A stretch of DNA of 21,238 nt, from positions 1 to 21,238 of IMG/VR virus record IMGVR_UViG_3300025300_000114. One strand, written 5' to 3'. The notes below the pieces were generated by a model that saw nothing but the letters and a program-made list of their open reading frames with translations, made no database searches and was not told the DNA's origin. Within the stretch, counting starts at the first letter, position 1, and every line of letters begins with the position of its first letter. Shown piece after piece: positions 1 to 21,238 of this stretch. The translations under genes and the position numbers were made by a program. The stretch comes from a virus.

Positions 1-60
1 AAAGATGAGGGCTTGCCCATGCGTACAAAATCATTACAGGAATGGATGTTTAATAGATAA
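1..60 (+). CDS. C-terminal end of upstream gene, possibly terminase large subunit (partial)
   Basis: Frame 1 is open from the first base and reads KDEGLPMRTKSLQEWMFNR before a TAA at 58-60. The stop overlaps the portal ATG at 60 (TAATG), the same coupling used throughout this window. In tailed phages the gene just before the portal is usually the large terminase subunit. That is the only basis for the suggestion, since 19 residues carry no diagnostic motif. The gene is cut by the window edge. Confidence 0.6.
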   Translation, partial: KDEGLPMRTKSLQEWMFNR

Positions 61-2069
61 TGCCCATACCAGAAGACCCAAGAGCAAAGTTAAATAAAGA
101 ATTATTCCAGCAATGGAGAGATTCCCGAGAAGATTGGGATGAAGAAGCCAGAACAGACCTTGATTTCTTTCTTGGTAACCACTTTACTGCTGATGAGTCC
201 TCAGACCTTTCAAGCCGCAATCAGGCTGATGTTCCCATGGATAGGATTGCTCCTGCCGTTGACAAGCTTAAAAGCATGCTTACGGCAAAACCACCCATAT
301 TTACAGCTATACCCAGAGAAGATTCTGATGTAAAGATGGCCAATATATGGCGAACCATTCTTGGTTATGTCTGGGATGTGTCTGATGGGGACACCCAGAT
401 GAAACAGGCCATTCAGGATTATGCTGTTACAGGGCTTGGATATTTATACGCCTATATTGATGGCGAAGCAGACTTCGGTAGGGGTGACGTCAAGTTCACA
501 CACGTCAATCCGTTTCGTGTTTATGTTCCACCTGATTGTCGGGACAGGTGGTTTACTGATGCCGAGGGCATCATTCTTTCTACCATACTGACTGGTGAGC
601 AGGTCGTTAACCTCTACCCTGAATTAGGAGATCAATTAAACCCAGAAACCGGAGAAGTTATTCCGGGGGTCATCAATGAACTGTCTACGGTGATGGACGA
701 AGACTTTCCCGATTCATCAAACCGTAATACCATTAAGGCTTTTACACCGGCAGAGACCAAAGATAGTGACTGGTGGCATCGACAGAAATACCAGATACTA
801 GAGAGATTCTTTCCTGCTTCAGTGCCTTTTTACCGTGTAGTGGACTCCAGAACAAATCAAGAAAGTATCATGGATGAGGAAGCTTTCACTACTATGTTGG
901 ATAAGAATCCCGGTGCTGTGGAGCGTGGATTCTTGGAGTTTGAAGAAATCCCCCAAACAAGAATAGGGGTATCTGCTTCTATTGGGGAAATTTCTTTATA
1001 TGAGAATATTTTAAACATTGATACCTATCCCATTATTCCTATTCCAAATATTTGGACAGAGACCCCATATCCTAAGTCAGATGTATCACGTGCAAGGCCA
1101 ATGCAGAAGCTTTTAAACAAGCTTTGGTCTTTAGCTCTATCGCATGCACAGGCATCAGCCGGACTGAAGCTTATTGTGCCTATGGGATCGGTTCCCAATA
1201 TGGAAGACCTTGAGCGGGACTGGTCAAACCCCAATGCTGTCATTGAAGTAGATACTACACAGGGAGAGCCTCATTACCCGGCACCACAACCTCTTGCGGG
1301 AGAGTTTTATCGTCTTATCCAGCAATGTGAGTTCTATATAGACTTCACATTCGGACTTCCAGAGATGATGCACGGTGTACCGGATAAGGCACCGGAAACA
1401 GTACGTGGTACAGAACGTATGATTGCAATGGGTTCCGAAAGACCCAAATCCAAGCTTAGGGATATTGAATTTAGTGTGAATCGGTTAGGTCGTATCCTAT
1501 ATGGACTGTCTAAGGGGCACTATACTTTTGAAAAGATGTTTGCTCTTGCACAGCCCAACAACGACTTGACGGATGTTACTATCAATATGTATGACGATAT
1601 AACCCGACCGGTGAATGATATTTTTAAGGACAGGTTAAATATCGGTCAACATGATGTTAGGATACAACCCGGCTCTACTTTGCCAGAAAGTAAGTGGGCA
1701 ACATATAATGTTTATTTAGAAGCATTTCAATTAGGGTTAATTGACAGGATGGAAGTATTGAAAAAGAATCCGGAAATATTTGACAAGGAAGGTGTCTTGG
1801 CCAGACTTAGCGATTATCAGCGTTATGAATCACAGATTCAGGGTCTACAGAGCCAAGTCAAAGAATTATCGGGTGACCTGCAAACCGCACGTCGTGAATC
1901 TGTTCACGATAGGATGCGTGTAGAGGTCTCCCAGTTTGAGAATAAACTTTCTGATATTGCATCCAAAAGTGATGCAGATAGAAAAGTTAGAGCCGCAAAG
2001 CTGGATACCGCTGTCAAGCTCGGTGAGCGTGACGTTAAAGATGCGATAGAAGGCATAAAAGGCGACTAA
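60..2069 (+). CDS. Portal protein
   Basis: Predicted 669-residue portal (head-to-tail connector), which forms the dodecameric ring at the capsid vertex through which DNA is packaged and ejected. Length, position before scaffold and capsid genes, and texture fit podovirus-type portals: an acidic, aromatic N-terminus (residues 1-60), a mixed alpha/beta core, a helix-rich stretch around residues 365-480 containing SAGLKLIVPMGSV and FGLPEMMHGVPDKAPETVRG, and a charged C-terminal coiled coil from about residue 590 to the end. The last part is rich in Gln, Glu, Arg and Lys, as expected for a crown or barrel extension. The ATG overlaps the upstream stop. A smaller open frame at 139-333 is a shadow. 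The family assignment is from memory of portal sequences, not from a search. Confidence 0.88.
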   Translation: MPIPEDPRAKLNKELFQQWRDSREDWDEEARTDLDFFLGNHFTADESSDLSSRNQADVPMDRIAPAVDKLKSMLTAKPPIFTAIPREDSDVKMANIWRTILGYVWDVSDGDTQMKQAIQDYAVTGLGYLYAYIDGEADFGRGDVKFTHVNPFRVYVPPDCRDRWFTDAEGIILSTILTGEQVVNLYPELGDQLNPETGEVIPGVINELSTVMDEDFPDSSNRNTIKAFTPAETKDSDWWHRQKYQILERFFPASVPFYRVVDSRTNQESIMDEEAFTTMLDKNPGAVERGFLEFEEIPQTRIGVSASIGEISLYENILNIDTYPIIPIPNIWTETPYPKSDVSRARPMQKLLNKLWSLALSHAQASAGLKLIVPMGSVPNMEDLERDWSNPNAVIEVDTTQGEPHYPAPQPLAGEFYRLIQQCEFYIDFTFGLPEMMHGVPDKAPETVRGTERMIAMGSERPKSKLRDIEFSVNRLGRILYGLSKGHYTFEKMFALAQPNNDLTDVTINMYDDITRPVNDIFKDRLNIGQHDVRIQPGSTLPESKWATYNVYLEAFQLGLIDRMEVLKKNPEIFDKEGVLARLSDYQRYESQIQGLQSQVKELSGDLQTARRESVHDRMRVEVSQFENKLSDIASKSDADRKVRAAKLDTAVKLGERDVKDAIEGIKGD

Positions 2070-2951: not shown

Positions 2952-4319
2952 ATGGCTTATTATACTGGACAGCTAAAAAGTAGCAATGTTACTGCGGCCG
3001 CAACCACCGCTGGTGTCGGACAAGCTCCGGATCAACGACGGTTATATGACTTTAGTGACAGAGTTGCTGAGTTAGCTCCAGAAGAATCTCCATTTTTTGT
3101 GTATCTTAGTAAGGTAGCAAAAGTACCTACAGACGATTCTGTGTTCAGGTTCCTTGAGAATCGTTCACGGGTTGACTGGACAAACCGTAGCCTAGTTGCT
3201 GATAGCGCTCTTAGCTCTTTAGCGGCTGGTGTAAGTGGACAGATTGATTTTGACGATGGGTCTGGTTCCTCAATTAGTTGGCTTGTCAAAGGTATGGTTG
3301 TAGCTGTTGAAGTGGTTGATGGCAAATCACATGCCATTTTCCGTATTGACAGTGTGAGTGAGCAAGGCAGCACTGAAACTCGTTGCGATGTAACCTGTAT
3401 GAGCGTTGGTAATTCTAGCGAATCTGGTTATGATGCAGTGGCTGACGGTGACAAAGCTCAGATTATTGGTACGGCGTTTGCCGAAGGTTCCGGTTCTCCG
3501 GACGTATGGTCTAAATCATTGGAAGATGATTTTGGTTATACTCAAATCTTCAAAACGGCGGCCGAGCAGAGCAATACCTCTATCGCAACTCGTTATCGTG
3601 GATATGCAGACGAATGGACTCGTATCTGGAATCTCAAGCTACGTGAACATAAGGTCGATATTGAAAGAGCAATGTTGTTTGGTCAACGTGGAAGATCAAG
3701 CGGGATTCAGACCACTGAAGGGCTCGTAGGTCATATTATCGTTAACCGTCAAGCAGGAACGCCCGGTTCTATTTCGTATAGTTCCGGTGCTCCGTATTTT
3801 GCGGCAGCGGCTTCAACGGCAATTACCTATGATACTTTCTTGTCTGATTTCGAGGTCTTCTTTGATCCTGCCCGTGGTGGCAGCAATAATAAACTGGCGC
3901 TTGCTAGTCTACCTGTAGTCTCTTACTTTAATAAGTTGGGGCCGGGTTTTGTGACTACAAGTTTGGAAACTGCTGGAGAAACTGAATCTCAATCTAATAT
4001 GTACAACTTTCAAGCTGTACAGAGAGAAGGTGCCTTCGGTCACAATATCATGCAATTAAATACTGTTCATGGCGATATGTCTATCGTCAGGGAACCTCTG
4101 TTTAGAGGCATGTCTGCTGGAATGCTTTTGCTTGCTGACATGAAGCATTGTTCATACCGTCCTCTCGTAGGAAACGGTGTCAATAGAGATACTCACGTTG
4201 TCACGAATGTACAACAGGGCGATGAAGACTTACGGAAAGACATGATCCTCACAGAGGCTGGTCTTGAAATAACGATTCCTGAAACTCACATGTTGTATTC
4301 GATGACTGATCTTAACTAG
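2952..4319 (+). CDS. Major capsid protein
   Basis: Predicted 455-residue major capsid protein that builds the icosahedral head. It follows the scaffold gene after 24 bases with a good ribosome-binding site (AAAGGAGAT). Residues about 30-75 (YDFSDRVAELAPEESPFFVY, then a Lys/Val segment and FRFLENRSRVDWTNR) and the middle (near residue 237, IERAMLFGQRGR followed by a GL-GHI segment) resemble the SU10/DUF5309-type major capsid family. These are HK97-fold proteins without a long cleaved N-terminal arm. The C-terminus ends in a beta-rich segment (LTEAGLEITIPETHMLYSMTDLN, positions 4251-4316). The family is named from memory of its motifs. Capsid function is well supported by synteny, length and composition. 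Confidence 0.85.
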   Translation: MAYYTGQLKSSNVTAAATTAGVGQAPDQRRLYDFSDRVAELAPEESPFFVYLSKVAKVPTDDSVFRFLENRSRVDWTNRSLVADSALSSLAAGVSGQIDFDDGSGSSISWLVKGMVVAVEVVDGKSHAIFRIDSVSEQGSTETRCDVTCMSVGNSSESGYDAVADGDKAQIIGTAFAEGSGSPDVWSKSLEDDFGYTQIFKTAAEQSNTSIATRYRGYADEWTRIWNLKLREHKVDIERAMLFGQRGRSSGIQTTEGLVGHIIVNRQAGTPGSISYSSGAPYFAAAASTAITYDTFLSDFEVFFDPARGGSNNKLALASLPVVSYFNKLGPGFVTTSLETAGETESQSNMYNFQAVQREGAFGHNIMQLNTVHGDMSIVREPLFRGMSAGMLLLADMKHCSYRPLVGNGVNRDTHVVTNVQQGDEDLRKDMILTEAGLEITIPETHMLYSMTDLN

Positions 4320-5623: not shown

Positions 5624-6294
5624 TGGCAACATTCCAAGTACAGGTAGAGGATATGGTTGGTACAGTAGGTGGTGATTCTTCTGATACCACAGCACTTACA
5701 TCGTTTTTGACAGATGGTGCTAAGGATGTAATTAACCACATGCCACTGTCTCTTTTGAGGTTATGCTCCAGCGAGGTAACATTTACACCACAGGCTGTGG
5801 GTAGTGAGAGTTCAGCCTCTACGTTAAATACGGCTAAGGTTTATAACATTAGGCGCAATGATGGGACGATTGACCAGCAATGTCGTTTGATACGTACTTC
5901 ACTTAAAGGCCGTGCTTCTGATTCTGATGATATGGATTACGCTACGGCAACTGATCCTGTGTATTACATTGAAAGTAATTTTCTTAATATTTTACCGTCA
6001 TCATCATCCGCTGTGGGTAAATATTCAGAGGTTCAGTATCCGGCGGTGGCGTATGGTGATAGTGCCATTACTCTTTTCCCCGATGAGTTGGAATCACTTG
6101 TAGTCCTTTATGCGGCAATGAAAGGGATAGAAAGAATTATTACAGATACCGTTGGTACCGATGAAGATATTGAGCTTGGACAGGCTAGAAAGGATCAATA
6201 TACATGGCTTCTTAACCAGTATAATGCTGGTATACAGAATATGATGGGGGTACCGGCTGGTGGTGGTGGTGGTGCCGCAAGGGGTGCAAGATGA
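5623..6294 (+). CDS. Head-tail connector / tail-adaptor-like protein
   Basis: A 223-residue protein. It begins with a segment typical of head-completion or tail adaptor proteins: a 'DFLTDGAKDVI'-like helix appears as LTSFLTDGAKDVINHMPLSL at residues 26-45. A beta-rich middle follows, then a helical C-terminal half with FPDELESLVVLYAAMKGIER (about residues 152-171), a motif class shared with adaptor proteins that count subunits at the portal. It ends in a flexible Gly/Ala/Arg tail (VPAGGGGGAARGAR). Position after capsid genes and before fibre genes supports a role joining portal and tail. The next gene overlaps its end by four bases (ATGA at 6291-6294). Confidence 0.6.
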   Translation: MATFQVQVEDMVGTVGGDSSDTTALTSFLTDGAKDVINHMPLSLLRLCSSEVTFTPQAVGSESSASTLNTAKVYNIRRNDGTIDQQCRLIRTSLKGRASDSDDMDYATATDPVYYIESNFLNILPSSSSAVGKYSEVQYPAVAYGDSAITLFPDELESLVVLYAAMKGIERIITDTVGTDEDIELGQARKDQYTWLLNQYNAGIQNMMGVPAGGGGGAARGAR

Positions 6295-6587
6295 CATTTA
6301 AACAGATATTATCACGGATTAGGAAGGTACACCCAGATGCTGGGGAAACGTATGTGAAGGCACTTATTAATGATGCACTTCTTGACCTTCGCAAATACAA
6401 GGTTGTAAGAAAGCATGCCAAAATAGATACAGTAGAAGATCAACGCTGGTATAACGTGGGAGACAGAAACTCTGATCTCCGTGTAGATAAAATTTATTCC
6501 GTTGCTTACAAGGACTCTGATGGTGACTACCGAAAGATTCCAAGGCTAACGGATCATTATAGTATTGTAAATGTGGATGAAAAATAA
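6291..6587 (+). CDS. Small virion/connector-region protein A
   Basis: A 98-residue protein coupled on both sides: ATGA overlap with the upstream connector gene and TAATG overlap with the next. The N-terminal half is basic and helical (MTFKQILSRIRKVHPDAGET, then ALINDALLDLRKYKVV). The C-terminal half is beta-like and includes RWYNVGDRNSDLRVDKIYSV at about residues 52-71. The next protein carries the same WYNVGDR heptapeptide. It is probably a tail or neck component; no family recognised. Confidence 0.6.
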   Translation: MTFKQILSRIRKVHPDAGETYVKALINDALLDLRKYKVVRKHAKIDTVEDQRWYNVGDRNSDLRVDKIYSVAYKDSDGDYRKIPRLTDHYSIVNVDEK

Positions 6588-6964
6588 TGGCTTATAATTA
6601 TCCAGAAGAATATCTTGCTTGGTATAATGTGGGTGACAGGATCGCTCTTGTAACCAGTAAGAATACATCGAACAAGAATGCATTTGAATCAATAGACGAA
6701 TCCACGAGTAATGGATTGCTCATTGAATACAGTGCCCAGCCAAGGGAGATCAAGAATCTCTCAGATGTGCCAGAGGTAGATGACACATTACATCCAGCAT
6801 TGGTGAATTACGTTAATTGGAAACTTTTTGAGGACAGATTGGACGAAGTTAGTGCCGCTTCCGCTGTGAAGTATCGAGCACTCTGGGAAACCACGGTGCG
6901 TCAGGAAGCTGGCAGAGACAAAGTAGGTGGCCAGAGAGCCATTGTCCCGTTTGCATTTAGATAG
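6587..6964 (+). CDS. Small virion/connector-region protein B
   Basis: A 125-residue protein whose ATG overlaps the stop of the previous gene. It has WYNVGDR at residues 12-18, a beta-rich segment (GLLIEYSAQPREIKN) and a helical segment with HPALVNYVNWKLFEDRLDE (about residues 69-87). That segment resembles the C-terminal part of phage connector or gateway proteins, where an Ala/Leu/Val helix packs against the ring. It ends in a positively charged Arg/Gln/Lys stretch. The shared heptapeptide and adjacent position suggest that proteins A and B are functionally linked. Confidence 0.6.
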   Translation: MAYNYPEEYLAWYNVGDRIALVTSKNTSNKNAFESIDESTSNGLLIEYSAQPREIKNLSDVPEVDDTLHPALVNYVNWKLFEDRLDEVSAASAVKYRALWETTVRQEAGRDKVGGQRAIVPFAFR

Positions 6965-10286: not shown

Positions 10287-10940
10287 ATGACAATAGAAAT
10301 GAATGAATCATTAACAGCAGTTCCTAACGCTGAGTTGCAATACAATATTCTTCCTTTATTCAGCATGCCTGTAATAATCTCCCAAGAAGAATACAAGTTC
10401 AACAAAAAAGAATTGAAATTTGTTAAAAGCTTGGCAAAGAAACCAAACATGCTGAATAATTATTCCCAAAATACCGAAGTATTGAATAGCCCAGAATTAA
10501 GTCAGTTGAAAGACTATTTACAAAAATGGGTGAATATCTATGCTCATAATTTTTTGAAAATCAAAAACTCGGTAACAGAATTTTATATTACTCAATCATG
10601 GTGCAATTATAATATTAAGGGAGAGGGACATCATTTTCATAATCATCCGAATAGTTTAATTAGCGGAGTTTTTTACATTCAAGGGGAAAATTCTCCGATA
10701 GAATTTAAGAGGAATGAAAAAATCTTTCCATTTGATTTTGTTTATGATTCATTTGATTTGTATAACTCAGCATCATATTGGGTTGATTTAGAGGTTGGTA
10801 AATTATTTTTATTTCCGTCTAGCTTGGTTCATTCGGTACGTGAAAATATGTCAAAAAAAACAAGGATAAGTCTTTCTTTTAATACCTTCACCAAGGGCGT
10901 GTTGGGTGAAAAAGAAAAGCTAACTTTAGTACATATATAA
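10287..10940 (+). CDS. 2-oxoglutarate/Fe(II)-dependent dioxygenase-like protein
   Basis: A 217-residue protein with the hallmarks of the putative 2OG-Fe(II) oxygenase family found in many phages. W105 and N107 start the core. HHFHNHPNSLISGVFYIQ (residues 115-132) holds the likely metal-binding histidines and a conserved SGVFY strand. H182 is the distal metal-binding His, and R193 in TRISLSFNTF is the candidate 2OG-binding Arg. Such enzymes hydroxylate or oxidise proteins, nucleotides or small molecules; the substrate here is unknown. The gene is visibly more AT-rich than its neighbours and Lys/Asn/Phe/Ile-rich, suggesting separate acquisition. ATG 10287 is preferred over 10299. No clear ribosome-binding site is seen. 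It interrupts structural genes as an accessory gene would. Confidence 0.75.
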   Translation: MTIEMNESLTAVPNAELQYNILPLFSMPVIISQEEYKFNKKELKFVKSLAKKPNMLNNYSQNTEVLNSPELSQLKDYLQKWVNIYAHNFLKIKNSVTEFYITQSWCNYNIKGEGHHFHNHPNSLISGVFYIQGENSPIEFKRNEKIFPFDFVYDSFDLYNSASYWVDLEVGKLFLFPSSLVHSVRENMSKKTRISLSFNTFTKGVLGEKEKLTLVHI

Positions 10941-13732: not shown

Positions 13733-14205
13733 TGCCGTTTTATCAGGAGATAAAAAAGGTTATTGACCGGGAAGGTGGTTATGTAAACGACCCAGACGAC
13801 CCCGGTGGAGAGACCAAATACGGTATTTCCAAGAAGGCGTATCCGAATGTTGATATTAAGAACCTGACAGTGGATGATGCTGTGGAGCTGTACAAAGATG
13901 ATTACTGGTTACCCGCCAAGATTGAGAGGTTGCCCGACAAACTACAGGGTCAGTACTTTGACATGGTAGTTAATCAGGGTATAGCGAAGTCCGCCAAGAT
14001 ACTTCAACGTGCATGTAATGGGAAGAACAAAGACAAGATTAAAGTGGATGGTAAAGTGGGGCCAAACACAATTAAAGCGACTGTAAAATTAGAGCCTGAT
14101 AGATTGAGAGCGTACAGAATTATGGAATATGCCAGATTAGCTATGACAAGGCCTGAGCTGGAAAAATATTATTATGGTTGGGTAAAGAGAGCAACGCATG
14201 CCTAG
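13732..14205 (+). CDS. Endolysin, GH108-type N-acetylmuramidase
   Basis: ATG 13732, overlapping the stop of the TM protein (TAATG), is preferred over ATG 13678, which would overlap that gene by 55 bases and add no domain. The 157-residue product has the GH108 signature REGGYVNDPDDPGGETKYGI (residues 13-32), with E14 the catalytic acid. YWLPAKIERLP (residues 58-68) and QYFDMVVNQGIAKSAKILQR (residues 74-93) complete the catalytic domain. A peptidoglycan-binding segment, KVDGKVGPNTIKA, follows. It cleaves the cell-wall glycan during lysis. No signal peptide is present, so it should depend on a holin, and several candidates lie immediately upstream. It overlaps the next gene by eight bases. Confidence 0.85.
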   Translation: MPFYQEIKKVIDREGGYVNDPDDPGGETKYGISKKAYPNVDIKNLTVDDAVELYKDDYWLPAKIERLPDKLQGQYFDMVVNQGIAKSAKILQRACNGKNKDKIKVDGKVGPNTIKATVKLEPDRLRAYRIMEYARLAMTRPELEKYYYGWVKRATHA

Positions 14206-16918
14206 AGCGTTTTATAACATGAACGACTTCTCCGGCGGTTTAAACGACGCTGTTGATCCACGTGATATCGGCGAGAACGAAATCTCGGAGGTTAACAATG
14301 CGGTGATGGACAAAAGGCGCTCCATCAGACCCATGGGTGGGGATGTAGCCCATAGTGATGTTCCCAGTGATACGGCTGGACATGTAACACCCGGCTATGG
14401 TTCTTTTGTGTTTGGGTCAGATCATGAGAATGTTCCAGCATTGGCGCCTACGTTTGTTACAAACAAGTTAGCTTTTTCACAGGCTGGCGATAACGATACT
14501 ATAGTAGATGATGATAGCACTTTTGTTTCATTGGGCTTTCAGGCTGGAGATATTATTAGCATTACTGGCTGTACAGACGAAACTGGAAATAACCTAGCAG
14601 GTTTGACAATTAAAAGTGTGACAGTTAACACAATCACACTTGAAGAAGATGGTGTGTTTACCAATGACGCTAACGAGGCGGGAACGGTTACCATTACAAG
14701 GATAGGCGGAGGTTTGGACACTGGTGAGAACTGGCTGGCGGTCATGGACTCAAAGACTGCTACAGTTGATCTGTATGATCTGAAGGGAGATGCCTTTACC
14801 GCTGGGGCTATAGACCTAGGAACTGTTACATCTAAAAGCTACTCCGCTAATAATCTTGCTTTCAATGACAACTCTGGATCAGACGCCAAGGATACCATTG
14901 TATCAGATGCCGGGGTACAGACTTTTCTTTCCTCTGGCTTTAGAAAGGGTGATATACTTGGTATTGCTGGGTGTGTTGACGAAAATAAGGCTAACAACCT
15001 AAATGCGGTTAGGGTGTTCAATGTAGCAAATCATACCATTACATTAGACCATAGTGGTCTTATGACTACAGACGCTAACGAATCCGGTACACCATCTATT
15101 ACCAAGCTAACACAGGGTGTATTTTATTTCGCTGATGAGGCTCTTAGGGTCGCTGATGCGTCACTTGGAGCGGCTACGGAGCCTCGCTGGTATGGTTTCG
15201 TACAGAGACAGCATTTTGGATCACTAAGACTTACAGCTAATACAAGATTTAAAAACTGGTATGACAACTCAAATGACCTTGCGGCACCTTCAACCCTTGC
15301 TATTACTTCTGGATATCCCAGTCTTGTTAGTAGTGAGGCGGTTGGCTTTAACCTTACCGTTGCTGATGTAACATCTGGCGGTACTTATGAAGCGGTAGCC
15401 TATCAGATAGCCGCTAGTTTTATATATGATGGCAATCAAGAGTCTTTACTCTACGTTCCCACATCCAATAATACCCATACACCGGGTGGTAACAATTATA
15501 CACTTTCAGTTAGTGTAAGAGCTACAGCTCCTTTTAATGAGAGGGTAAGTGGTGCAAGGATATATATACGTAAAGATGACACTGATGATCCTTGGGCATT
15601 ACTGATGGATATTGATCTTGCAGACGGTGTTCGGGCGGAAACATCAGGTGATTACGCCGCTTGGGCATTAAATAGCGGGGATCAGGTTCATGTCAATACG
15701 GTTAAATCACTATCTCCAAGCCTTGAGACCTATGAGATTCTAAATGGATTCTCTCATGACGAGAAGAAGATAACTATATCCGGTGTGGGTGAAGGGTACA
15801 AGACGGCCGTGGTGGCTAACAGGCGATGTTTTGTAGCCAATGTAAAGACCCAGAATGAGGAGGGTCAGACTGTGCAGATGCGTGATCGGCTCATGTACAC
15901 ACCTATCGGCAAATTTGATACATTTCCCAGAAGTTTCTTTGTGGATGTTGTGAAGGGTGATGCTGAGGAGTTTACCAGCCTTCAGGAGTTTTCAGACCGA
16001 TTACTGGCTTTCAAGAACAAGAAGATGTATATCATTAACATAGCTTCCCCATCCCCAGCTAACTGGTATGTGGAGGATATTAAAGATTTTGTGGGTGTGG
16101 AACATCCCTATGCTACCACCAAGACAGAGTTCGGGATCGCTTGGTGCAACAAGTTTGGTGTTTACCTGTATGACGGTCGTGAAGTGAGGAACCTGTTGCT
16201 GAACCGTGTTGATGAAGCCACATGGCAGTCTTTCTTTCAGCGGGATACTCTCATCGGGTACAATCCTAAAAAGTATTATCTGGTCATATTAAAAGATGCA
16301 TTTGCCAGTAGTGGTGATGTGTATGTATATGACTTCCGTACCAACTCATGGACATACGGGCAATCAGCCTTTGGTGACAACTTTAACCGAACCAACATGG
16401 TACATGACTGGAACGGAAATATGGTCACGGTCTATTCAAACAAGACCACAGGTGATCTAGTCTGGAACGGTGTACAAACAAACTGGGACGACATGACCGG
16501 TGGTAACGACTGGAATGCTGTTGCTGATGCTTACAATGTAAAAGAATGGTCAGATGCTCTAAGGGATGTGGCTACTACCAAGTTTGCAGTGGTGACAAAG
16601 GACATTGATTTTGGTGAGCCGGGTAGAAAGAAGAAGGTTTATGGCGTAACGCTTACATATAAGAGTGATAATGACCAGACACAGCCAGTATACTATGCTA
16701 CTGATGGCGGTACAAGCTTTTCAAGTCAGCTTACAGGCAATTTCACTGGTACTGGCACCGGCTGGAAGAAGGTTCGGGCCAGACCCAGTAGTCCTATATC
16801 CTGTCAAAGCATAAGATTTAAGATTCTGAATCCCTCAGACGCCACAGGGACTTCAGAGGGTGTTCAGATCAACGACATGGCAGTGGAATACAGACCACTG
16901 TACACGAGGGTGAGCTAA
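14198..16918 (+). CDS. Large tail structural protein (tail-nozzle / minor tail class)
   Basis: A 906-residue protein. The N-terminus (MNDFSGGLNDAVDPRDIGEN, then EISEVNNAVMDKRRSIRPMG) is a signature found in phage tail-tube or nozzle and minor tail proteins. It contains a tandem duplication at about residues 89-172 and 217-306, each copy with a 'DTIV', 'SxGFxxGD', 'C-DE', 'ITL' and 'ANExGT-xIT' series. A beta-rich middle follows, then a C-terminal half that looks like a beta-propeller or tail domain (MYTPIGKFDTFPRSFFVDVV, and later a PVYYATDGGTSF segment). It probably forms part of the tail below the connector. It is cotranslated with the endolysin. Confidence 0.7.
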   Translation: MPRAFYNMNDFSGGLNDAVDPRDIGENEISEVNNAVMDKRRSIRPMGGDVAHSDVPSDTAGHVTPGYGSFVFGSDHENVPALAPTFVTNKLAFSQAGDNDTIVDDDSTFVSLGFQAGDIISITGCTDETGNNLAGLTIKSVTVNTITLEEDGVFTNDANEAGTVTITRIGGGLDTGENWLAVMDSKTATVDLYDLKGDAFTAGAIDLGTVTSKSYSANNLAFNDNSGSDAKDTIVSDAGVQTFLSSGFRKGDILGIAGCVDENKANNLNAVRVFNVANHTITLDHSGLMTTDANESGTPSITKLTQGVFYFADEALRVADASLGAATEPRWYGFVQRQHFGSLRLTANTRFKNWYDNSNDLAAPSTLAITSGYPSLVSSEAVGFNLTVADVTSGGTYEAVAYQIAASFIYDGNQESLLYVPTSNNTHTPGGNNYTLSVSVRATAPFNERVSGARIYIRKDDTDDPWALLMDIDLADGVRAETSGDYAAWALNSGDQVHVNTVKSLSPSLETYEILNGFSHDEKKITISGVGEGYKTAVVANRRCFVANVKTQNEEGQTVQMRDRLMYTPIGKFDTFPRSFFVDVVKGDAEEFTSLQEFSDRLLAFKNKKMYIINIASPSPANWYVEDIKDFVGVEHPYATTKTEFGIAWCNKFGVYLYDGREVRNLLLNRVDEATWQSFFQRDTLIGYNPKKYYLVILKDAFASSGDVYVYDFRTNSWTYGQSAFGDNFNRTNMVHDWNGNMVTVYSNKTTGDLVWNGVQTNWDDMTGGNDWNAVADAYNVKEWSDALRDVATTKFAVVTKDIDFGEPGRKKKVYGVTLTYKSDNDQTQPVYYATDGGTSFSSQLTGNFTGTGTGWKKVRARPSSPISCQSIRFKILNPSDATGTSEGVQINDMAVEYRPLYTRVS
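14462..14713 (+). repeat. Tail-protein domain duplication, copy 1
   Basis: About 84 residues starting at KLAFSQAGDNDTIV. Copy 2 begins about 128 codons later. The copies share the order of the DTIV strand, SLGF/SSGF turn, AGD/KGD, GCTDE/GCVDE, ITLEE/ITLDH and DANEAGT/DANESGT motifs. Confidence 0.65.
14846..15115 (+). repeat. Tail-protein domain duplication, copy 2
   Basis: About 90 residues beginning NLAFNDNSGSDAKDTIV, matching copy 1 motif by motif at protein level with clear divergence. Confidence 0.65.
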
Positions 16919-17154: not shown

Positions 17155-18321
17155 ATGCCAAGCATGTTTGAAGCAATGAAGACATCTTTTGAGACACAAC
17201 AAGACCTTGTTGGTACTAAAGGTAGGACAGCGGCTAGTCTTAAATACACTCAAGAGAAAGAAAATATTGAAGACGAGATTGCCAGACTGGGACAGCAAGA
17301 GATAGCGTCAAAAGCGGCATACGCTAAAGCTGGACGAGGAGCTAAAAAGGAGTCTACTAAAAAGTTTTGGGGCGATTTGTTAAAAACCGTAGCATTTGAA
17401 ATAGCGTTAAATGTCGCAACTGGTGGCGCCGGGACGGCCTTTAAAGGTCTTAAAATTTTTACGGAGGGTGGTAAGCTTGCAAAGTTAGGAAAAGGTTATC
17501 AAACCTTAAGAAAAACAAAAACAGGTAAAAACGTACTGCGGGCCGCAATGCTTGCGAAGGCTGCATCGGGTGCAACTAAGGAAGGTCGAAAAACATTAGC
17601 CACAGAGCTGGAGCAAGCCCCCGGAGAGTTCGAGTTTATAGAAGAGCCGGATGCTGAGTTCTTAAAGCAAGAACGGAAACGCTCTGAAGAAGCGGCGGCA
17701 GGTCTTGAAAGGGGACGGAAAACCATGAAGGACGTGATGGAAGGTGTATACGAAGGCGTTGGTCGTGCAGATTTCCTTTCTCCTTCCGGTATAAAACAGA
17801 TGATAAGCGGGGCACAGGCTTTTGCCGCCGCAGATACACTTGTCAATATGGCTGATTTTGCCAAGTTATTTGGCTCAAAACAGTCTGAGGTTGGTGAACA
17901 GGCGCTTAGTAAGGCATTGAGCTTGGATGTCCCAATACCAGAAGAACTAGCTACGGGTGCTTTGGAATTACCCGCCCCACCTAGCGGGCTAAGTCCGTAT
18001 GGAGCTGGTAAAGAAGCATTCGCTCTTAAACCCGAGGGCGGTATTCCGGACTTAGTTTATCAGGCGGCACCTACTGCTGGACAGGCCGCAGGAGCAGGAG
18101 CGGCTCTGCCAAGTATGTCACAGATGTTTGGAGGTGGACTTGGAGGTGTTCAACCATCGCTGGGTCAGGTGGGATCATACATGCCCTTTCAATCTCTAAG
18201 TGGTCAAGGGCAAAGTAAGGCACTACAGATAGGTCAAAAGTTTAATCTTTATAAGAAACCCTCATCTTATGTAGGGAGTTTCCCGTGGTCTTCACCATCA
18301 GCGGCGATATCGAGAAGTTGA
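17155..18321 (+). CDS. Probable internal virion / ejection protein (Ala/Gly-rich)
   Basis: A 388-residue protein with an AGGAAG site eleven bases before the ATG. Residues 1-60 are charged and helical. Around residues 72-100, WGDLLKTVAFEIALNVATGG and GAGTAFKGLKIF form an amphipathic to hydrophobic segment, followed by basic Lys/Ala stretches. From about residue 270 it is Pro/Gly/Gln-rich and flexible, ending in a Ser/Gly tail (SSYVGSFPWSSPSAAISRS). Helical, basic, partly membrane-like proteins just upstream of a very long coiled-coil gene are typical of virion internal or ejection proteins. This is inference from composition and position. Confidence 0.55.
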   Translation: MPSMFEAMKTSFETQQDLVGTKGRTAASLKYTQEKENIEDEIARLGQQEIASKAAYAKAGRGAKKESTKKFWGDLLKTVAFEIALNVATGGAGTAFKGLKIFTEGGKLAKLGKGYQTLRKTKTGKNVLRAAMLAKAASGATKEGRKTLATELEQAPGEFEFIEEPDAEFLKQERKRSEEAAAGLERGRKTMKDVMEGVYEGVGRADFLSPSGIKQMISGAQAFAAADTLVNMADFAKLFGSKQSEVGEQALSKALSLDVPIPEELATGALELPAPPSGLSPYGAGKEAFALKPEGGIPDLVYQAAPTAGQAAGAGAALPSMSQMFGGGLGGVQPSLGQVGSYMPFQSLSGQGQSKALQIGQKFNLYKKPSSYVGSFPWSSPSAAISRS

Positions 18322-18330
18322 GTTTCCTAA

Positions 18331-18366
18331 ATGCCACTACGTAAATTTCAGAGAGGACAAAACTAA
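18331..18366 (+). CDS. Possible 11-residue leader peptide
   Basis: ATG 18331 to TAA 18364-18366 encodes MPLRKFQRGQN. The last A of the stop is the A of the start codon of the giant gene (TAATG), the coupling used by real genes here. It is probably either a coupling leader or a coincidence in the 44-base gap, which also holds GAGAGGA for the next start. Confidence 0.25.
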   Translation: MPLRKFQRGQN

Positions 18367-21238
18367 TGCCAAGATGGGGTAAAAGTCCTCCCAATAGCTT
18401 TCTTGCAGACATGCGGAGGCAAATGCCTCTTTCCGGTAATGTACCCGGTCAGTTTACAGGACAACAGGATACAGTCACAGCCCGACTAACACCCGGAGAG
18501 TTCGTTGTGCCACGCAATGTGGCTCAACAGCTATCACCAGAACAGAAGCAATCATTACTTGGCGGTCAGACCCCCAATGGGCAAGCTGGTACCAATGCGT
18601 GGTCTTCTCCACTAATGCCTCAACTAAACACAACAAATCAATCCCCAGCTAGATATCAGGAGGGTGGGGATGTATTAGGAGATGCTGGACAGATGGATTG
18701 CCGTACAAACGGATGTCCACCGGGACAGAACTGTGTACCCGGCCCAATGGGAAGTTATGTCTGTGAGCAGTCTACCGAACCTCTTGAAGGGACACGCACA
18801 CTACAAGACCTTCTAGATGGTGAGGGACTTGGTGATTTCTCTGAATTTGCTGATCTATTTGGTGAGGATGCGGGCAAAGCCCTTGCTGAAAAATTTGGTG
18901 TCAGCGAAGATGTTGCCAAGAAATATGTACTTCCATTTGAAAAGGATCGTTTTAATAAACTGTTGGCTGAAATTCCCAAATGGAAACAGGAAGAGGTTTT
19001 CAACATTACTAAAGATTTTCAGATGCGTGTCGCCCGTAAAAACGAAGAGCAGGCACGTGTTACCGGTCAGGCTGACATTGCAAAGCAACGTACCGATGAA
19101 ATGGATGCACAGACCCTTGCCATGTTCGGCAAGGAAATGACCTCAGATCAATATGCTAACCTTGATTCTACACAGCAGGCACAGTATTTCAATATGGTGG
19201 AGGAGACACTTGGTGAAACAGTTACCATTGGTGGCTTATCTGGTAAGCAATTATCCGCAGAACGGAGACGGTTAGAAGCTGAGTTTGGGGAGAGTCCCGG
19301 TGAACTCGGTGGATTGCTTGGAGCAGAGTTTGAAGAAGCAAAACTACAAACCGAGGCAATGTATGGTGAGGAAGAAGCAAGAGAAACTGTCATTGAAGGT
19401 GCTGAGGCAGTAGGTGGATTTGAGGGAGCAAGACTAAAAGAGATTCGCAAACAGCTTGAGTATCGTTATGGAGCAGATTTAGCCGCAGAGGGCTTAACTG
19501 GTGGAGCCGCCTCAAGAAGATTGGATGAGATGGCTCAACAGATTAGTGAAGAATACGGTGACCAAGAGGGAGAGCTTGCTGGGCTTAAGGGTGAGGAACT
19601 TACCGAGCGTCAACTCCGCATTACCAACCAACAGACAGAAACAGAAAAACGTCTAGAAGCCCAATATGGTAAAAAGGATGTAGTAGACCCAGAGACCAAT
19701 GAGATTATAACATCCATTGGCGGGACAGTTGCCAAAAAATTAGATGTTGCAGAAGACAGGCAAACAGAGCGTCAGCGCCAACTGACTGCACGGACAGAGG
19801 AAGAAACGGAAAGATTAGAAGCACAGTACGGTGAAGGTGAAATAGATCCCATAACCAAACAACCAGTTTCAGCCCTAGCAGGAATTACTGGGCAGCAGAT
19901 TCAAGAACGGGCAAGGTTGGCAGAAGAAGCGTCTAGGCGTGAGTTTGTAACTGGAACACAGGGACTTCGTGAGAGCATGTTACAACAGTCTATGCAACAA
20001 CGCATTGCTGGCCCTCAGACCCGTGGTTTTGCTGCGGCTGGTGGGCAGTCTTTCATGCAACAGATGCAAAAGCAAAGAAGTGATGAAGCTTATACCAATC
20101 TAAGGTCTAGTTTGGCCGCCAGTGCGGATGAAATACAATCAACACGTGATATTCAAGAACGTCAAGCGGAAGAAGCAAGAAGACGTGGCTATGCAAGTGT
20201 GGAAGAAGCACGTCTAGCAGGTGAGTCTGGTCTTGATATTGCAAGGTCTGAAATGGACATAGCCAAGGAAGAAGCAGAAGAAGCAAAGCGTGCCGGATTC
20301 GCCAGTACCGAAGAAGCGGCTAGGACAGGTACACGTGCTGTAGAACTGGCTGAAGATGCGGCACTATTACAGGCTAGAAGGGAAAGGGCTTCTTACACAG
20401 AAGAAGAATTACAGGCCGAGGAAATGAAAAGGGCTGGTAAAGAGTCCTTACTTCAGCAGGTCGGTCGTTCTGGGGAAGCCGCAAGAGCCGCTGAACAAGC
20501 AAGGGTCTTACGTGAGAACCGTGCAATAGAAGCGGCAAGAGCTGGTCGTGAAGGGATTGGATTAAAAGCTTTAGAGGCCACAGAGCGTCAACGACAAGCT
20601 GGTGAGCAGGCTGACATTGCACGTTCGGTAGCTGAGGAAGCTAGGAGAGCAGGTCAAGCGGGTGTAGACCTTACAGAACTGGAGATGAAGGAAGCCAAAA
20701 GGAGAGCAGAGGCTGGTTTAGAGTCAGAAGAAGAGCGTAGGTATGCAGAAGTTGAAGGCTTTCTAAGCGATTATATTAAAGGCTCTCAAGCCACCGCTTT
20801 AAGACTGCTAGAAATGGGTTATAAGACTGATGAAGACGAAGAAGATGATCCACTCGTAAAGGGTGATGTTGGTCAAGAGTGTTTCAGAACCTGTGATGAA
20901 AATCATGCTAGCGGTAGTGCGGCACATCAGACATGTTATGATGCCTGTGGTGGTGAGGACACAACTGACACAACCAATGTGTGTGATCCTCCATGCACGG
21001 GAACACAAGAATGTGTTAATGGGGAATGTGTGGAAAAAACAACCGCCCCACCCGTCCAATCTTGCGAGTTTTGTCTTGCTAAGAACCCAGCCGATCCAAG
21101 TGTATGTTATGGTGAGGGTGCACCTTGTGGGGAAGAAACTGCTAAAGGTGATTGCACTACAGAAGGATGTCCACCGGGGGAAACCTGTGTAAGAGGAAAA
21201 CATGGTGGATATGCTTGTCGCAAAAATGGTGGAGACGC
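18366..21238 (+). CDS. Giant helical virion protein with repeated cysteine modules (3' end cut by window)
   Basis: Open from ATG 18366 to the window end, at least 957 codons with no stop; GAGAGGA lies nine bases upstream. Residues 35-48 read DTVTARLTPGEFVV, a motif known from phage tape-measure proteins. Residues 112-133 hold a four-Cys module (C-x4-C-x5-C-x9-C, with CPPGQNC and GSYVC). Residues about 150-830 are Glu/Ala/Arg/Gln-rich, mostly helical, with repeats such as RLEAEFG (302-308) and RLEAQYG (429-435 and 483-489), then Glu-Ala-Arg blocks with GYAS/GFAS turns. Residues 839-951 contain 16 Cys, ending with a second copy of the four-Cys module with identical spacing. It is probably a tape-measure or internal virion protein. 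The Cys modules suggest an extracellular or disulfide-bonded part. The C-terminus is missing. Confidence 0.7.
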   Translation, partial: MPRWGKSPPNSFLADMRRQMPLSGNVPGQFTGQQDTVTARLTPGEFVVPRNVAQQLSPEQKQSLLGGQTPNGQAGTNAWSSPLMPQLNTTNQSPARYQEGGDVLGDAGQMDCRTNGCPPGQNCVPGPMGSYVCEQSTEPLEGTRTLQDLLDGEGLGDFSEFADLFGEDAGKALAEKFGVSEDVAKKYVLPFEKDRFNKLLAEIPKWKQEEVFNITKDFQMRVARKNEEQARVTGQADIAKQRTDEMDAQTLAMFGKEMTSDQYANLDSTQQAQYFNMVEETLGETVTIGGLSGKQLSAERRRLEAEFGESPGELGGLLGAEFEEAKLQTEAMYGEEEARETVIEGAEAVGGFEGARLKEIRKQLEYRYGADLAAEGLTGGAASRRLDEMAQQISEEYGDQEGELAGLKGEELTERQLRITNQQTETEKRLEAQYGKKDVVDPETNEIITSIGGTVAKKLDVAEDRQTERQRQLTARTEEETERLEAQYGEGEIDPITKQPVSALAGITGQQIQERARLAEEASRREFVTGTQGLRESMLQQSMQQRIAGPQTRGFAAAGGQSFMQQMQKQRSDEAYTNLRSSLAASADEIQSTRDIQERQAEEARRRGYASVEEARLAGESGLDIARSEMDIAKEEAEEAKRAGFASTEEAARTGTRAVELAEDAALLQARRERASYTEEELQAEEMKRAGKESLLQQVGRSGEAARAAEQARVLRENRAIEAARAGREGIGLKALEATERQRQAGEQADIARSVAEEARRAGQAGVDLTELEMKEAKRRAEAGLESEEERRYAEVEGFLSDYIKGSQATALRLLEMGYKTDEDEEDDPLVKGDVGQECFRTCDENHASGSAAHQTCYDACGGEDTTDTTNVCDPPCTGTQECVNGECVEKTTAPPVQSCEFCLAKNPADPSVCYGEGAPCGEETAKGDCTTEGCPPGETCVRGKHGGYACRKNGGD

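Follow-up and report, generated by a model that had tools for sequence, protein, structure and literature searches.

We show that an uncultured podovirus encodes a rod protein whose cysteines are confined to small four-cysteine modules at its ends, and that the C-terminal array of these modules is a recombination hot spot: modules change their order, are gained or lost, and pass from relative to relative and from one end of the protein to the other, while the rod is conserved. The window, that is, the whole stretch of DNA analysed here, is 21,238 nt long and comes from IMG/VR record IMGVR_UViG_3300025300_000114. Its gene order favours an internal or ejection role for the protein. We give a probability of roughly 45% to the reading that it is a virion rod protein of a SU10-like ejection block, with modules that would stay reduced in the cytoplasm, become oxidised after release or delivery, and serve as swappable knobs for binding or locking.

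Results

The rod protein gene spans positions 18366..21236 (plus strand, as for all features of the window whose coordinates are written with two dots). It reads for 957 residues and is open at the contig end, and its relatives suggest that about 60-90 further residues are missing: the full-length relatives in contigs L002 (1,016 aa) and L004 (1,043 aa) go on into a Pro/Thr linker, followed by GSFLND(V/M)L and a short Gly/Arg tail. The protein opens with an N-terminal extension (residues 1-110, 18366..18695) that holds the motifs NSFLADM and D-T-V-x-A-R-L-T-P-G-E-F-V-V-P, and its LTPGEFV stretch has a weak likeness to tape-measure proteins of phages (E 0.0037 against PHROG, about 0.5-1 by tblastn). 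The SFLADM peptide (residues 11-16, 18396..18413) recurs in the form (S/T)F(L/M)x(D/E)(M/I/V) near the C-terminus of L002, L004, L034 and L044, and thus in both clades described below. This FLxDM-type peptide is repeated N-terminally in the window's group, and the L011 protein has GSFLDD there; it is a plausible candidate for a tag that docks the protein to another virion component.

The window protein has 20 cysteines, four in residues 112-133 and 16 in residues 839-951, all of them within modules. The intervening 705 residues (134-838, 18765..20879) contain none and are rich in Glu (15.9%), Ala (13.8%), Arg (9.3%) and Gln (7.9%). The first-pass annotation had described a coiled-coil protein with a long Glu/Ala/Arg/Gln-rich helical region; the composition is as described and the region is predicted to be mostly helical, but the full-length model does not show a coiled coil. 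As that prediction is poor (mean pLDDT 45), we did not use the rod fold as evidence.

The same annotation had reported one motif, C-x4-C-P-P-G-x2-C-V-x-G-x2-G-x-Y-x-C, at both ends of the protein. This motif, which we call module A (Cys spacing 4-5-9), indeed occurs at residues 112-133 (18699..18764) and 930-951 (21153..21218), its only two exact matches in the open reading frame. The two 24-mers share 14 of 24 residues, and their local alignment score of 102 was unreached in shuffled sequences (maximum 66, n=2,000), even with every cysteine held in place (maximum 70, n=2,000), so the likeness goes beyond mere cysteine spacing. Modules share only short exact DNA repeats; the one common to both copies of A, for example, is 14 nt long. 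Outside the rod protein family, a scan of the viral collection for the exact four-cysteine motif returned just unrelated or stop-containing frames.

The placement of the two copies fits the earlier description only in part. The first stands at the N-terminal end, though behind the 110-residue extension, whereas the second lies at the end of the contig, not of the protein. Since 12 more cysteines, in three other four-cysteine modules, immediately precede the second copy, the C-terminal region is an array rather than a single knob. Its four different modules stand in the order C, B, D, A: module C (residues 839-861, 20880..20948), with twin CX3C pairs and a predicted helical hairpin; module B (residues 873-888, 20982..21029), with Cys spacing 3-5-4 and the sequence CDPPCTGTQECVNGEC; module D (residues 900-921, 21063..21128), with Cys spacing 2-10-6; and module A. 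The picture of two knobs joined by a rod thus gives way to one N-terminal module and a variable C-terminal array.

Structure prediction for module A in isolation (38 residues, five sequences) gave the compact fold that had been anticipated, with one helical turn, a β-hairpin and a pLDDT of about 85; both copies show the same elements in the full-length model, at low confidence. The top Foldseek matches were mostly small disulfide domains (granulin, EGF, BM-40, follistatin, psalmotoxin), all with E>1, and the VIA Z score was about 2. The suggestion that the module is EGF-like did not hold: membership requires six conserved cysteines paired 1-3, 2-4 and 5-6, and module A has four. No Pfam EGF family reached its cut-off, the best of the TILa, FOLN and granulin profiles was TILa at 18.2 bits (cut-off 27), and the best hit in a PDB profile search was a granulin at E 0.2. 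Module A, predicted to be a compact turn and β-hairpin with close-set cysteines, may in this resemble granulin, EGF-like, FOLN and TILa domains; those domains have six or more cysteines. The granulin-, EGF- and follistatin-like similarity is therefore a hint at the level of the fold, and the models support a small disulfide-type fold rather than membership of these families. The four-cysteine units, the even cysteine totals and the cysteine-free remainder of the protein lead us to infer that the cysteines are oxidised.

Eleven other viral contigs carry the gene, whole or in part. The window groups with L002, L003, L004 and L005. L011 is intermediate, encoding a protein of 745 aa with about 40% identity, and a second clade, found through its nozzle-like neighbour, comprises L033, L034, L035, L036, L041 and L044, with complete proteins of 724-787 aa. 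Searches of cultured phages with the protein and its parts gave no match (the weak ones all lay above E 0.1), Pfam, PHROG and NCBIfam returned no family for it, two scans across genomes of bacteria and archaea brought up neither relatives nor a host, and no tRNA genes were found that might hint at one. Homologues without the cysteines had been named as evidence against the proposal. For the N-terminal module L011 is such a homologue, with the rod present but this module and the entire N-terminal extension absent, so the paired module is not obligatory; it still has one four-cysteine module, unrelated to A, at its C-terminus.

The rod lacks cysteine in all seven distinct sequences, while the C-terminal array holds 4 to 38. 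Total counts are 20 in the incomplete window protein, 20 in L002, 22 in L004, 4 in L011, 32 in L034 and 42 in L044, even in each of the five complete proteins. The window has the module order C-B-D-A, L002 has B-C-A'-D, L004 has E-B-C-D, and L011 has E alone. In the second clade L034 has E2-D-F-F-E2-AB-C, and the array of L044 is longer, built from E2, D, AB, C and further units. Among members of the window's group, DNA identity is 93-95% for the rods but only 45-63% for the tails, which align in pieces out of order; between the window and L002, modules C and B are 94.7% and 86% identical as DNA with their order swapped (C before B in the window, B before C in L002). The divergence is abrupt between L033 and L044: their 1,314-nt rods agree at 99.1% (12 differences in about 1,397 nt), but from a point inside the array onwards no similarity is left.

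Modules also change ends. Proteins of the second clade start with an A'-type module whose first cysteine is residue 4 (MADCRTDGCPEGQECVVIGGGETGSAGDLVYGC in L034). This module is 84% identical as DNA to the C-terminal A' of L002 (71% as protein over 42 residues, E 1.7e-15), although the rods of the two are only about 31% identical as protein. This likeness across ends, despite divergent rods, indicates that the two ends draw on one common pool of modules, which is why a single module type can stand at both.

Four separate assemblies contain one and the same 2,175-nt gene, array included, and in L004, L034 and L044 the array stays in frame up to a stop codon, with the same small gene coming directly next; both observations suggest recombination rather than assembly error. 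Four of the 12 contigs (the window, L003, L005 and L033) break off within the gene, which is what local diversity would lead one to expect. In L003 (4802-7162), the first about 600 residues match the window's gene and the remainder matches the L002 version, which makes it a recombinant or a chimeric contig. We did not find RVT_1 (reverse transcriptase) in six related records, which are fragments; within these, a diversity-generating retroelement is not indicated.

A scan of the viral collection with module B recovered, besides the rod protein family, Cys-rich proteins from other viruses that are unrelated to it. In those encoded by contigs L018, L022, L023, L025, L026 and L027, polyproline linkers accompany a module B-like unit of the type CDPPCGACQDCVNGVCV; such arrays may be wider among uncultured phages. 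The 787-aa protein of L044 (2256-4619) has a two-cysteine unit, GCMDSTANNYNADATEDDGSC, inside its array; this unit is reminiscent of ones in secreted proteins of marine bacteria.

Judged by its SU10-type major capsid protein (2952..4319, PF17236, E 2e-28) and P22-like portal protein (60..2069, PF16510, E 3.5e-38), the window derives from a SU10-like podovirus. Two open reading frames that overlap by one base, 6291-6587 and 6587-6964, match columns 1-74 and 116-188 of the SU10-type adaptor family PF24175 (E 0.0037 and 5.7e-5; neither reaches the curated cut-off). The adaptor is seemingly split in two, and the layout is conserved in contig L014 (11187-11483, 11483-11860). A 2OG-Fe(II) oxygenase gene (10287-10940; PF13759, phrog_81) lies between a glycine-rich open reading frame and small open reading frames.

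Upstream of the rod gene lie a 906-aa protein in the nozzle position (14198..16918), assigned by gene order and the look of its N-terminus only, with no sequence match to SU10 gp17, and a 388-aa protein without cysteine in a T7 gp14-like position (17155..18321). In L004, L034, L041 and L044 the order is a nozzle-like protein, a 74-75-aa protein, a 246-388-aa protein, the rod protein, and proteins of 66-68, 485-544 and 1,353-1,426 aa; the record of L011 has a 469-aa S74 protein in place of the 74-aa one. The 246-388-aa, about 500-aa and 1,353-1,426-aa neighbours are free of cysteine. The rod gene thus follows the nozzle-like gene and precedes a very large open reading frame, the position of a podovirus ejection protein by comparison with SU10 gp17-gp24. 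Profile comparison of the rod protein with SU10 gp23, and of the large neighbour with gp24, gave no match, so the placement in an ejection block follows from gene order and not homology.

The 66-68-aa protein encoded directly after the array gene carries an invariant H-R-x-C-G-x-C-Q-x-R-W (L004 7824-8030, L011 8331-8531, L034 8156-8356, L044 4631-4831). Its gene overlaps the array gene by ATGA in L004, and its conservation of 65-67% is above that of the rod protein; it is possibly a small redox or zinc protein.

Discussion

Podovirus ejection genes form a small block in which a gp14-like gene adjoins a gp15-like gene and then a larger gp16-like open reading frame, with gp15 ranging from 431 to 982 aa (PMC8954989). 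In SU10 the ejection proteins are gp20-24 (PMC9509320), a series that ends in a 1,473-aa protein. The genes described here share with T7 gp14-gp16, P22 gp7/gp20/gp16 and SU10 gp20-gp24 a post-nozzle block that ends in a very large protein, and the rod protein, predicted to be helical, resembles these proteins in being rich in Ala, Glu, Gln, Arg and Lys, with a size near the gp15-like range. Mosaic domain swapping is also a known theme in podovirus ejection proteins. Sequence and profile searches gave no match to known ejection proteins. The ejection role accordingly leans on the order of the genes and on an N-terminal motif that weakly resembles tape-measure proteins.

What sets the family apart is its cysteine. 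Its members have 4-42 cysteines, against none in the 2,956 aa of SU10 gp20-24, none in T7 gp15 and gp16 and one in T7 gp14, and no sequence similarity to such proteins was found; the first-pass view that such modules are out of place in a normally Cys-poor class of phage protein is supported. Ejection proteins are thought to pass through the narrow tail partly unfolded (PMC10172136, PMC12633501), a need with which their poverty in cysteine agrees, and a block member with up to 42 cysteines is therefore unexpected.

We propose that the rod protein sits in the virion, in the ejection (internal core) block of a SU10-like podovirus. Each module would be a small disulfide-closed fold, kept reduced in the host cytoplasm and oxidised only after release or after delivery to the periplasm. 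An envelope-spanning rod might then carry the modules at its tip as exchangeable knobs that bind or lock, and variable partners in the host envelope could drive their swapping. The more specific version, in which the ejected protein passes through the tail reduced and unfolded, and its shuffled disulfide micro-modules, up to about ten of them, fold once they reach the oxidising envelope, is possible but doubtful. Against the proposal as a whole, known ejection proteins of this position are free of cysteine, disulfides made before ejection should impede passage through a narrow tail, and exposed adhesins are the more usual place for hypervariable tips and for Pro/Thr or Gly/Asn linkers.

These last features would fit an external fibre, whisker or tail-tip component, whose array would be a hypervariable receptor-binding tip folded by disulfides outside the cell after lysis. 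Variation restricted to the tip of a conserved shaft is the pattern of receptor-binding proteins, the linkers are of low complexity (TTPPATTPP, GNGNGN), and exposed disulfide-rich virion parts exist in phage Milano (PMC10491603). Set against this are the gene order of an ejection block, the location of fibre-type genes (S74 chaperones or fibre matches) elsewhere, the resemblance of the N-terminal motif to tape-measure proteins, and a low-confidence model in which no β-rich fibre shaft is predicted. We consider an external location unlikely, if the strongest of the alternatives.

Less probable still is that the modules are zinc-binding knuckles that fold in the reducing cytoplasm and serve assembly or nucleic-acid contact. 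Each has four cysteines, those of modules B, C and D include CxxC or CxxxC pairs, and the gene directly downstream encodes a small CxxC protein. But the spacings of modules A (4-5-9) and E (6-9-6) are unlike those of usual zinc ribbons, there is no conserved His, and the structural look-alikes of module A, all weak, are disulfide folds. That the array is instead a neutral, low-complexity Cys-rich appendage, with no folded or binding function, seems to us very unlikely: L011 manages on one module, yet the units are strictly four-cysteine, their spacing recurs in two clades, cysteine totals are even, and modules resemble one another strongly beyond cysteine placement. Chimeric metagenome assembly over repeated modules, which the contigs broken inside the gene might bring to mind, is hardly credible as the source of the variation given the short exact repeats between modules and the in-frame arrays with the same gene next, and the array found identical in four separate assemblies led us to reject it as a sole cause.

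The individual elements of the proposed ejection-block rod have precedents. Agrobacterium phage Milano is likewise a tailed phage with unusually Cys-rich, cross-linked virion proteins, but it is a myophage with cysteines across its capsid, neck and tail proteins and largely inter-subunit bonds, and shuffled four-cysteine micro-modules are not described in the available text of that report (PMC10491603). Phage tail fibres likewise combine a conserved shaft with a recombining hypervariable tip, whereas in the rod protein tiny Cys modules make up the tip, and its gene lies in the ejection block. In the literature searched, we found no earlier case of a Cys-rich ejection protein or of an EGF-like domain in a tailed phage. 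Mosaicism of ejection proteins, hypervariability of fibre tips and an abundance of disulfides in virions are each known, but the databases and literature searched yielded no shuffled array of four-cysteine micro-modules on an ejection-block protein.

If the rod protein is ejected and folds in the envelope, it would be a fast-evolving, redox-gated anchor of a trans-envelope channel, a type of ejection protein not described before, and oxidation on arrival would provide a simple one-way switch for channel building. If it is exposed on the virion, it would represent an unusual class of hypervariable phage adhesin made of tiny disulfide modules. On either reading, the module-swapping tip could mark host-range differences among these uncultured phages.
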